From Methanobrevibacter sp. (GTDB lineage Archaea > Methanobacteriota > Methanobacteria > Methanobacteriales > Methanobacteriaceae), in assembly GCF_017432245.1 (NCBI RefSeq), contig NZ_JAFRJO010000039.1, positions 1 through 35,602 of the forward strand: a stretch of 35,602 nt of DNA. Direction: 5' to 3'. Under the pieces are notes generated by a model, which made no database searches, was not told where the DNA came from, and was given only the letters and a program-made list of their open reading frames with translations. The position numbers and the translations under genes were made by a program. Each line of letters begins with the position of its first letter. The first letter of the stretch is position 1. Below, one piece after another: positions 31,345-35,602 of the stretch.

Positions 31345-31408
31345 TTTTCCTAACATTTTTTTATTTTCCTTTTTTAAATTTTTAGATTATTTTTAATTAT
31401 TTTTTTTA

Positions 31409-31482
31409 TTTTTCTATCATTTTTAGATTATTTTTTATTATTTTTCTATCATTTTTTATTATTTTTCTATCATTTTTTTTAC
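31409..31482 (+). repeat. T-rich tandem repeats downstream of argJ
   Basis: TTTTTCTATCATTTTT recurs at 31409, 31441 and 31462, the last two as direct 21-base units. Archaeal transcription ends at T-rich tracts, so this array likely gives multiple termination sites. No coding frame is seen in 31345-31754. Confidence 0.5.
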
Positions 31483-31605
31483 TATTTTTTAATTATTTTT
31501 TAATATTTTTCATAATTTTTTAAAATATCATATATTCTATTCTTAAATCTGATTTATAGGATTTTTAGCAATATTTTACTAATTTTTAGGGGTAAAGTTT
31601 ATATG

Positions 31606-32025: not shown

Positions 32026-32859
32026 ATGGTTGATGAAGAGAATGCACAAAAGAAAAAATCTAGAAAACCTTCTAAAAAATTACTCTATTTTTTAATCATT
32101 CTTATTGTCATATTAGCAGAGGGTTTCGTTCTTTGCTATGATTATGCAACAAATGAAGACAGCTTTTTAAATGAGCTTTCTGAAAAATACCCTGCATTAA
32201 ATGATGTATTGGACTTCATTCCAATTGACTTTATCAGCTCATTTAGCGGGGATTCATCTCAATTGAATACTGGTGTAAAGACAGTGGGCAAAAACAGCAT
32301 AGGAACCGTAACAGTTGAAGGGCCTTATGGAAATGCCAATTCATCAGTAAAGGTTGCATTTATCTTAGGGCAGCATCCAAGGGAATCAAATGCCCATGAC
32401 GCTATCTACAATAGCCTTTTGAACAATTCAGATTACTTGAACTATTCATATTATGTTTATAGGATTAATGTAACTGCAGAAAGTGATGATTTTGAAGAAA
32501 GCAGGATGAATGGTCAATTGCTTGCACAGGATTATGTGGTAAAGGATACATTTAAAAACGGATATGATTTGGTTATTGACATTCATGCTTCAAATGGTGG
32601 TTATGTGCAAGATCCATATATATTTGCTCCAGTTTCCAATGATACAGTATCTTATGAGGCAGCAAATAATGTAACAAAGGACATAAGTTATGTGATTTAT
32701 TATGAACCGGCAAGCTATTCAAGCCCTCAATACTCTACAATTCCTATAGAGGAAGGGGGAATTCCAGCTATTGTATTTGAAATGCGCGGAAATCCTGATA
32801 ACAGTTTGGAAAACCAGGCAAGTCAGTTTATTTATGCTGTTGATAAATTAGGCTTGTAA
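32026..32859 (+). CDS. Membrane-anchored M14-like zinc peptidase or amidohydrolase
   Basis: One N-terminal membrane helix (about residues 18-38, preceded by a Lys-rich cytoplasmic end) anchors an exported domain. The zinc motif of the M14/AstE-aspartoacylase superfamily is visible: H117-P-R-E120 in ILGQHPRESNAHD, then H187 in DLVIDIHASNG, and a catalytic-type glutamate E252 in IVFEMRGN. Spacing is closer to AstE/aspartoacylase than to classical carboxypeptidases. The exported position suggests a peptide or wall cross-link (pseudomurein) substrate, but that is inference. A short GGTG precedes the ATG. It is monocistronic and lies upstream of the adhesin gene pair. Confidence 0.68.
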   Translation: MVDEENAQKKKSRKPSKKLLYFLIILIVILAEGFVLCYDYATNEDSFLNELSEKYPALNDVLDFIPIDFISSFSGDSSQLNTGVKTVGKNSIGTVTVEGPYGNANSSVKVAFILGQHPRESNAHDAIYNSLLNNSDYLNYSYYVYRINVTAESDDFEESRMNGQLLAQDYVVKDTFKNGYDLVIDIHASNGGYVQDPYIFAPVSNDTVSYEAANNVTKDISYVIYYEPASYSSPQYSTIPIEEGGIPAIVFEMRGNPDNSLENQASQFIYAVDKLGL

Positions 32860-33015
32860 CTTTTTTATTTTCTTTCTATTTATTTTTTAATTACATAATC
32901 CATTTTTTATCTATTTTTTTCATTGTCACGTTTATTTATTGAAAATTCATAGTAATTTTTTCTCTTTTATAATTTTTTTATAATTTTTTTAATGATTAAC
33001 TCATTATACAAATAT

Positions 33016-33024
33016 TTATATATA
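33016..33024 (+). promoter_or_regulatory. TATA box of adhesin gene 2
   Basis: TTATATATA lies 23 bases before the conserved ATGTAACGGGGTT block. The same spacing (24 bases) is found upstream of the next adhesin gene at 35159-35168, so transcription probably starts close to that block. Confidence 0.55.
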
Positions 33025-33046: not shown

Positions 33047-33309
33047 ATGTAACGGGGTTAAGTATTAAATAGATTAACCATTAACGAATTATTGGGATAA
33101 ATAAATTTCTAATAATTAATGATTTAAAGATGTGATTTGTTTCATCTTTAAAAATCAGGGATTGATTTTTTTGATTAAAATGAACACTATTTTTTCTCAA
33201 AAGTTACATATGATGAAATTTTGGGGTGTTTTTCATCTAAATAAATTGTAACTTGATTTATTTTTTTGGAAGATATTTCATATTGTGAAAAAAATATGGT
33301 GAATTATAT
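33047..33309 (+). ncRNA. Conserved structured leader of adhesin gene 2 (copy A)
   Basis: About 263 bases from ATGTAACGGGGTT to the ATG, closely matched at 35192-35456. Hairpin 1: TTTAAAGATG (33123-33132) with CATCTTTAAA (33143-33152), loop TGATTTGTTT. Hairpin 2: AAATCA (33152-33157) with TGATTT (33163-33168). Element 3: AAGTTACA (33201-33208) with TGTAACTT (33247-33254), enclosing GATGAAA (33212-33218) with TTTCATC (33231-33237) and a GGGGTG loop. Differences from copy B keep pairing through G-U wobbles. Likely a cis-acting RNA in the adhesin mRNA. Confidence 0.65.
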
Positions 33310-34914
33310 ATGGATAAATTGAAAACTCGTGTTTTATTCGTTTCATTGATTATCTTAGCATTATTGTCTGTTAGTGCTGTTGCAGCTGCAGATGCTGATG
33401 AAGTAATCAGTGATACACAAGATAATTTTGATTTATCCGAAGAGACAGTCAGTGATGTTCAACAAGCAAGTGATAGCGAATTTGGTGAAGTTGATCCAAA
33501 TCCTAACCCAACTGCAAGTAGTTCTCTTACTATTAAGATTAATTATATGGATGGTTTTGGTTACAGTGATACTTATGGTGAGTGGGTTACCCATTATGAA
33601 GGCCCTAATTCTGTGCCATGGTCTTTTCCTGTTGAGAAAAAGTTGAATAGTACAGTAGGTATGAGTAATCAAAAGAGTTTTACTTATGATGGGTATCGTT
33701 ATGTCTTTAAATGTTGGAGAGATGACCAAACAGGTCAGGATATAGGCCATACCGAAAAGAAAGCATTTGCAAAATATATTGATGAAAATGGTTTTGGTCA
33801 TAATTATACATATTCATACACTGCTCAGTATACTAAAACCCTTATTGGATGTGTAAATTGTGAGTATATTGATAATTTAGGAAATGGAGGAGGTTCTGCT
33901 AGATGGACTTCAGATAATACAGCTTATTCACATGAATTTAGGGAACCTGCTGACATACCAAATGGGGCAAAATTTTTATACTGGGAAAGAAATGACACTA
34001 AACAGCGGTACGGTGAGGGTGATACCATGAAAATTAAAACTTCTGAATATGCCGGTATTGAGCTAAATGTCACTGTATATGCGGTTTATAACATCGAGAC
34101 TGAGATTGAACTTGAAGATATCACTGATTATGTTGAGAATGTTGTGGACATCACAGCTAAAATCAAGCCAAAAGTTAGCAGTCTTCCTAATCCAAATGGA
34201 ACTGCTACTTTAACTATTGATTGGAGCAACAAACTTGAAAGTGGATTATTAATGGCAGGTTCTGAATCTTATACTGTTGATGTTGAAGATGGTCAAGCTG
34301 TATTTAAAGATATCACACTTTCAAGCCCTGGTACTTACAAGTATTCCGTGAAATTTAATGGATATAATTATGATGTACATTCTGAAGGTATAAATGATTA
34401 TATTGAATCAGAAGAATCAGCTAAACTCAATGTTTTACCATTAAACACTACAACTACAAGTGATGATGTTTCTGGTACTGCTGGTGATAAAGTAACTATT
34501 ACCGCAGATATCGTTGATCAAAACGAACATGCTGTTAAAAATGGTACTGCTGTATTAAAAATTAATGGTAAAGAAATTGGTCGTGTTGACGTAAAAGAGG
34601 GTAAAGCTGTATTTGAAGGTGTAGAATTACCATCTGAAAGTACTGAAGCTACTATTGAGTATTTAGGAAACGATTATTATAATCCATCCAATACTACTAT
34701 TCAAATTACTGTAACTCAACCTGCAGAAGAACCTGAGGAAGAACCTGGTGAAGAACCTGAAGAGGAACCTGAGGAAGAACCTGCAGATGAGCCTGCTGCT
34801 CCTGTTGCAGAAAAAGCAATTCCTGCAATTCCAGCAGCTGGTAATCCAATTGCTTTAGTAGTTTTAACATTATTGACCTTAGTTTCAACTGTCTCTTTCG
34901 GACGTAAAAAATAA
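33310..34914 (+). CDS. Adhesin-like surface protein with InlB-repeat-like and Ig-like domains
   Basis: Complete at 534 residues. A signal peptide (MDKLKTRVLFVSLIILALLS, cleavage probably near AVAAADA, residues 24-28) is followed by an acidic spacer. Two segments resemble InlB B-repeats, ending TAQYTK and VTVYAVYN with aromatic cores such as YVFKCWRDD and AKFLYWERND. A divergent Ig-like domain (about 275-375) and a Big_3-type Ig domain (about 378-465) follow. The C terminus is a Glu-Pro linker, AAGNPIA, a hydrophobic helix and GRKK. The final module closely matches the protein at 3-1547. Cell-surface attachment is expected and the ligand is unknown. GGTGAATTATAT precedes the ATG after a long structured leader. 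Confidence 0.9.
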   Translation: MDKLKTRVLFVSLIILALLSVSAVAAADADEVISDTQDNFDLSEETVSDVQQASDSEFGEVDPNPNPTASSSLTIKINYMDGFGYSDTYGEWVTHYEGPNSVPWSFPVEKKLNSTVGMSNQKSFTYDGYRYVFKCWRDDQTGQDIGHTEKKAFAKYIDENGFGHNYTYSYTAQYTKTLIGCVNCEYIDNLGNGGGSARWTSDNTAYSHEFREPADIPNGAKFLYWERNDTKQRYGEGDTMKIKTSEYAGIELNVTVYAVYNIETEIELEDITDYVENVVDITAKIKPKVSSLPNPNGTATLTIDWSNKLESGLLMAGSESYTVDVEDGQAVFKDITLSSPGTYKYSVKFNGYNYDVHSEGINDYIESEESAKLNVLPLNTTTTSDDVSGTAGDKVTITADIVDQNEHAVKNGTAVLKINGKEIGRVDVKEGKAVFEGVELPSESTEATIEYLGNDYYNPSNTTIQITVTQPAEEPEEEPGEEPEEEPEEEPADEPAAPVAEKAIPAIPAAGNPIALVVLTLLTLVSTVSFGRKK

Positions 34915-35158: not shown

Positions 35159-35168
35159 TTTATATATA
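35159..35168 (+). promoter_or_regulatory. TATA box of adhesin gene 3
   Basis: TTTATATATA lies 24 bases before ATGTAACGGGGTT, as in the promoter of the preceding adhesin gene. Between 34958 and this point I see only AT-rich DNA. Confidence 0.55.
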
Positions 35169-35191
35169 ATTATATAAATACAATATACTGT

Positions 35192-35456
35192 ATGTAACGG
35201 GGTTTAGTCTTTAATAGTTTAACTTTTATTGATGTTAATGGACTAAAAACTTTCTGATAAATTTTTTTGATTTAAAAAGGTGATTTGTTTTATCCTTAAG
35301 AATCGTTTTAATGATTTTTTGATTAAAATGAACACTATTTTTTCTCTAAAAAGTTACATATGGTGAATTTTTTGGGGTGTTTTTCATCTAAATAAATTGT
35401 AGCTTGATTTATTTTTTTGGAAGATATTTCATATTGAAAAAATTATGGTGAATAAA
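35192..35456 (+). ncRNA. Conserved structured leader of adhesin gene 3 (copy B)
   Basis: Homologous to 33047-33309 over its whole length, with best conservation in the last 130 bases. Hairpin 1 keeps the loop TGATTTGTTT with arms changed to AAGG/CCTT (35277-35297). Element 3 has AAGTTACA (35351-35358) with TGTAGCTT (35398-35405), where one A-U pair became G-U, and GGTGAA (35362-35367) with TTCATC (35383-35388), again with one G-U. TTTAGTC (35204-35210) can also pair with GACTAAA (35241-35247). These substitutions retain structure on the plus strand. Confidence 0.65.
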
Positions 35457-35602
35457 ATGGATAAGTTGAAAACTCGAGTTTTGTTTATATCCTTGATTAT
35501 TTTAGCATTAGTTTCTATCAGTGCTGTTGCAGCTGCTGATGGTGTTAATGATGAGATAATCAGTGCAAATCAAGAAGATTTTGATTTATCTGAAGAGACA
35601 AA
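35457..35602 (+). CDS. Adhesin-like surface protein, N-terminal fragment (3' end outside window)
   Basis: The first 48 residues are visible: MDKLKTRVLFISLIILALVS, a signal peptide nearly identical to that of the gene at 33310, then AVAAADGVNDE and an acidic stretch with EDFDLSEET also shared with that protein. This shows a tandem duplicate. GGTGA lies five bases before the ATG; an in-frame ATG at 35445 would precede that site and is less likely. The rest of the protein, its repeats and its anchor are beyond the window. Confidence 0.88.
   Translation, partial: MDKLKTRVLFISLIILALVSISAVAAADGVNDEIISANQEDFDLSEET

Follow-up and report, generated by a model that had tools for sequence, protein, structure and literature searches.

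The window, by which we mean the whole 35,602-nt stretch analysed, is one of the 104 contigs of a Methanobrevibacter genome which, as inferred from its named relatives, belongs to the Methanobrevibacter ruminantium group. Two adhesin-like genes lie in tandem on the forward strand: gene 1 (33310-34914, +) encodes 534 amino acids with a signal peptide, a Big_3_5-like domain and a C-terminal membrane anchor, and gene 2 (35457-35602, +) is cut by the contig end. Each is preceded by a leader, of 263 nt for the first gene (33047-33309) and 265 nt for the second (35192-35456, +; R3 match 35188-35363, 108 bits). Both leaders carry an identical ATGTAACGGGGTT block, at 33047 and 35192, and a TATA box (TTTATATA) starts 32-33 nt upstream of it, at 33015-33022 (+, -32 from the block) and 35159-35166 (+). 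A Shine-Dalgarno sequence, GGTGA, is located at 33298-33302 (+) in leader 1 and at 35447-35451 in leader 2. Upstream of leader 1 lies a peptidase-like gene (32026-32859, 277 aa) with no Pfam or NCBIfam match and with relatives in 18 of 19 genomes of the genus, mostly in 2-6 copies each; between argJ and this gene, positions 31358-31523 hold T-rich imprecise tandem repeats with ATTATTTTTCTATC-like units of 10-21 nt. Positions 3-1547 of the window contain the C-terminal part of another adhesin, with five Big_3_5 stretches and a C-terminal anchor, whose own leader is off the contig; its stretch 1272-1360 shares 81% identity with 34624-34712 in adhesin 1.

The identity between the two leaders is 0.83, compared to 0.54 for shuffled leaders, while the 170 nt upstream of the two promoters are 0.55 identical, which is the level of shuffled sequence. 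The sequence-only reading of this DNA had called the two leaders of about 265 nt unusually alike, and this is borne out (83% versus 55% for the DNA just upstream), as are the identity of the block, its TATA spacing and its coordinates in both copies. That reading had also held that recent duplication is not the whole explanation; a purely recent duplication is indeed ruled out, because relatives occur in other species.

Fifteen complete leaders were collected from nine genomes, and every one directly precedes an adhesin gene, so that the association read from the two window copies extends to 15/15 members. They form two classes, type I (n=9, both window copies included) and type II (n=6). A DNA search of 19 Methanobrevibacter genomes located the leader in G016, G002, G006 and G012, and sequence profiles agree. 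In G016, G002 and G006 the gene just ahead of the leader is, as in the window, the peptidase-like gene, and the leader is therefore considered orthologous. Tracing this gene in further genomes led to two strongly divergent type I leaders, in G005 and G015, and tracing the signal peptide led to the type II leaders, found in G005, G014 (two), G015, G017 and the window's own genome (G000:C38, L004), where it represents the third leader copy. Seven type I leaders have mutual identities of 0.67-0.90, versus 0.47-0.63 for upstream DNA. All downstream genes encode related signal peptides, in most cases followed by an FDLS-like motif, and the mature adhesin parts differ between members (beta-helix, Big_3_5 or no Pfam match). 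The count of 15 includes one full copy from G115, on a 4.4-kb contig (L079, G115:C134) of a Methanosphaera rumen MAG; this contig carries a tandem pair of leader-adhesin units, as in the window. It is probably misbinned Methanobrevibacter DNA or the product of a transfer, and we do not claim spread to Methanosphaera because misbinning is likely. Neither profile gave a leader in G003 (2.94 Mb, single contig), and 30 genomes representing 16 other genera of the family gave none, in a search without an internal positive control that could miss divergent members; the sensitivity limit of R3 is illustrated by the type I leader of G015, which scores only 22.8 bits. In a search of 139 family genomes with the GGRGTRTTTTTCATC pattern, the non-leader matches with three mismatches whose context was read proved to be coding or unrelated AT-rich DNA; these matches include six copies in G030 that are identical to each other, one of which was read. 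The weak R2 matches L165-L167 and L172 were rejected, being inside coding DNA.

The two classes share a helix, P1, in which ATGTAAC (33047-33053, +; 35192-35198 in leader 2) pairs with GTTACAT 150-250 nt downstream (33203-33209, +; 35353-35359) and closes a domain. The pairing is 7/7 in 13 of the 15 members and 5/7 in two, the type II leaders of G015 and G017. Two-sided changes in P1 correspond to few independent events, namely A-U to G-C in G005, with the same change in G015 of that lineage, and U-A/A-U at the helix end. The block had been taken as the probable mark of the transcript start. This fits type I, in which it lies at the expected start with the TATA box 32-34 nt upstream in 9/9 leaders, but not type II, in which more than 100 nt separate it from any TATA box that could belong to a plausible promoter; its conservation is consequently not explained by initiation. 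Comparison of the sequences indicates that the ATGTAAC block owes its conservation mainly to being one strand of a helix, P1. In L138 and L164 the type II block is preceded at ~75 nt by a second TGTAACGG motif (GATTCTGTAACGGATTTGAT), which resembles the type I block and is located near the predicted leader start. A leader peptide over ATGRTGAA... was considered and rejected, as the frame differs between species.

The alifold consensus of type I contains P1, P2, P3, P5 and a 3' hairpin, P6, and that of type II contains P1 and a long P5. The P2 hairpin (33056-33079, +) is formed by GGTTAA/TTAACC, or GTTTAATC/GATTAAAC in G016, and its cells are paired with p=0.006 against the tree null. P3 (33087-33117, +) is a hairpin of AATTATTGGGA and TTCTAATAATT, replaced by TAATTTTAAA and TTTAAAATTA in G012. 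P5 (33126-33195, +) is a long irregular helix of AAAGATGTGATTTGTTTCATC with GATTAAAATGAACACTATTTTTT, contains the U-tract TTTTTTCT and shows the two-sided changes U-A/C-G and A-U/G-C; the G015 and G005 leaders (L106, L107) have insertions with TCATCATTAGTCTGTTTGCTAG-like units in this region, two in G015 and one in G005. The P6 hairpin (33223-33279, +), obtained from the alifold consensus and helix tests, pairs GGGGTGTTTTTC (33223-33234) with GGAAGATATTTC (33268-33279) and, apically, AAATAAAT (33239-33246) with ATTTATTT (33256-33263). The hairpin 1 described earlier in the window (AAAGATG/CATCTTT) does keep its loop in both copies, but its arms pair in leader 2 only out of register (AAGG/CCTT). 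As a local hairpin it was rejected: it is not conserved across species, and the same bases pair long-range in P5.

In order to evaluate the fold, MAFFT alignments built without structure were folded with RNAalifold and compared with tree-based null alignments of our own, in which each column's changes were placed randomly on the tree and the structure was predicted again. The alifold energy of type II was below 500/500 of these nulls, and that of type I gave p=0.003. Compensatory changes beyond phylogenetic expectation were found, being strongest in P5 of type II, in which class 12 double-compensated pair types were counted versus 3.9 expected (p=0.002); covariation of this kind was not significant in type I alone (p=0.30, tree-based null). 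When 14 members are aligned jointly, P1 and P5 are 95.6% paired, compared to 41-63% with partners slid, and 0/500 shuffles equalled their score; these helices were picked on the same data and are favoured by that comparison, the re-folded tree null being the fair test. Selection on the RNA that preserves pairing, as proposed from the two window copies, is thus upheld by the tree nulls and by P1 and P5, but not by the stems then cited, which have no two-sided change. We consider the structure of the leader well supported; the mechanisms considered, a P1/anti-P1 translational switch, a 5'-end stabiliser or an attenuator, are putative.

The cited stems correspond to alternative pairings. The outer stem, GTTACA/TGTAAC, joins partners 43 nt apart, and the inner stem, GATGAAA/TTTCATC around GGGGTG (33212-33237, +), would form as an alternative state in part of type I only. 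The reported A-U to G-U changes between the window copies are real (TGTAAC to TGTAGC in the outer stem, GATGAAA to GGTGAAT in the inner one); across the family, one-sided G-U changes are the only ones in the outer stem, and the changes of the inner stem are one-sided, with one break in G115. The TGTAAC strand, which we call anti-P1 (33247-33252, +; TGTAGC at 35398-35403 in leader 2), is the rival of 33047-33053 for GTTACAT in seven type I leaders only, and is absent in 8/15 members, that is, in all of type II and in the two strongly divergent type I leaders (G005, G015). The outer stem is therefore not a family-wide element, the universal partner of GTTACAT being the start block, and a P1/anti-P1 switch cannot be general. 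The local GTTACA/TGTAAC stem excludes both P1 and P6, and P6 and the inner stem are mutually exclusive. In those seven members the competition of anti-P1 with P1 could be a switch. In silico, the Shine-Dalgarno sequence of the seven type I leaders is unpaired with values of 0.66-0.82 when P1 is forced and 0.05-0.46 in 6/7 when the alternative is forced, G016 being the exception in which it is left uncovered. For a putative RNA thermometer, in which a helix over this sequence would melt near growth temperature, the forced P1 state would be the mainly open one and the alternative fold the largely closed one. This difference in access is suggestive only, because 0.3-10 kcal/mol separate the two states and both face competition from other folds. 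The full-length minima of single sequences are often other folds, with a mean P1 pair probability of 0-0.12 in 6/7 and 0.65 in G012.

With somewhat better than even confidence, we propose that the leader is a new cis-acting structured 5' UTR RNA family of M. ruminantium group adhesin genes, with control of translation initiation as the likeliest mechanism. The comparison shows that AUGUAAC opens the type I leader and lies further inside in type II, pairing with GUUACAU as P1; inside this helix lie between one and three others (P2, P3 and the long P5 with the invariant U-tract), and downstream of the P1 domain follow a hairpin, the Shine-Dalgarno sequence GGUGA (GGTGA in 14/15 members) and the adhesin start codon. 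We infer that, in type I, transcription directed by the TATA box 32-34 nt ahead of the block yields leader and adhesin message as one mRNA, and that the leader acts in cis on the expression of its own mRNA. With P1 closed the Shine-Dalgarno sequence would be exposed; in type I the alternative fold of GUUACA/UGUAAC plus GAUGAAA/UUUCAUC would open P1 and P6, and the freed strands could cover it. A ligand, a protein, temperature or cotranscriptional timing may trigger the change. Only tentatively do we extend this to a new archaeal class of RNA switch, in which the 5' end of the adhesin mRNA and a downstream copy of the motif would compete for one GUUACAU strand, and a ligand, protein or cotranscriptional event would decide whether the rumen methanogen displays a given adhesin.

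A rather unlikely alternative is that the leader stabilises the mRNA, P1 in type I or two 5' hairpins in type II blocking 5'-to-3' decay without any sensing. Stabilisers of the ompA type act in the mRNA of a surface protein, which has a long leader, and hold its 5' end in a helix; the predicted 5' end of type I likewise lies inside P1 of such a leader, and in 6/6 type II members two hairpins fold ahead of P1, those of G014b being fused into a single one. No ligand or switch would be necessary, and wall-protein mRNAs would be long-lived. For such a role, however, a simple hairpin would be enough, and the conserved U-tract, the P5 sequence blocks and anti-P1 would be superfluous; unlike the ompA type, the adhesin leader is archaeal, with a core that is much larger and conserved in sequence. 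The U-tract is itself the basis of a second, doubtful alternative, according to which TTTTTTCT in P5 is a site of polymerase termination or of binding by an Lsm-type protein, the folding deciding on read-through past the tract. A TTTTTTCT-like tract is present in 15/15 members (TTTTCTTCT in one G014 copy), and in the joint alignment of P1 and P5 the purines facing it vary between A and G while C hardly ever replaces U on the other side, suggesting that the U is kept for itself. This conservation beyond pairing needs in nearly all members leaves attenuation or protein binding some room, although U-tracts are common in AT-rich genomes. A promoter-leader-signal cassette kept alike by gene conversion or recent duplication, without any RNA function, would account for the joint conservation of the leader and the signal-peptide coding part next to variable mature parts; this is improbable, as P1 and P5 persist, with compensatory changes, in the divergent copies of other species, and identity in the upstream DNA is only at chance level. 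It is highly improbable that the AUG and immediate UAA or UAG at the block act as a 5'-terminal minimal ORF that traps leaderless ribosomes and holds back initiation at the adhesin gene: this AUG-stop, at or near the predicted 5' end in leader 1, is present in 15/15 members, and the A to G change in G005 and G015 still gives a stop, but its conservation is explained equally by pairing, because the same bases are the P1 strand and the A to G change is compensated on the opposite strand, and the type II AUG sits more than 100 nt inside the leader. A separate trans-acting small RNA, beside the adhesins by chance, would fit an independent structured unit, yet we give it very little credence, as the leader always lies ahead of an adhesin start codon in a constant relation and with its own Shine-Dalgarno sequence.

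The cis-acting leader that we favour resembles riboswitches and other cis-regulatory leaders in its 5' UTR site, its P1-closed domain with the Shine-Dalgarno sequence and start codon just downstream and, in part of the family, a downstream anti-P1 that contests the 3' strand of P1. It differs from them in preceding adhesin rather than metabolic genes, in matching no Rfam family and in an anti-P1 that is not universal. The archaeal L7Ae autoregulatory leader, in which a k-turn in a structured 5' leader controls translation (PMC6298567), is likewise an archaeal structured 5' leader, but belongs to an unrelated gene, and by eye we recognised no k-turn in ours. In plant NIP5;1, ribosome stalling at AUGUAA leads to mRNA decay (PMC11915504); the AUGUAA in the 5' UTR is common to both, although here it is part of a conserved helix strand. 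No Rfam 15 family was matched at the gathering thresholds or at relaxed ones, the only signals being snoRNA noise that scored far lower; Methanobrevibacter is not named in a 2010 survey of bacterial and archaeal structured RNAs, and the M1 genome paper contains no mention of a riboswitch or untranslated leader. From sequence comparison, the leader is a candidate for a new structured cis-leader RNA family, absent from Rfam and restricted to the genus as far as seen.

The M1 type strain encodes 105 adhesin-like proteins, some of which increase when a hydrogen-producing bacterium is co-cultured with it (PMC2812497). A conserved leader that marks a defined subset of adhesins would give direct access to how a major methane producer of the rumen expresses its adhesins and attaches to partners. 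It also lengthens the short list of archaeal structured cis-leaders by one candidate. Through this leader, methanogens of the M. ruminantium group could set the timing at which particular adhesins are displayed.
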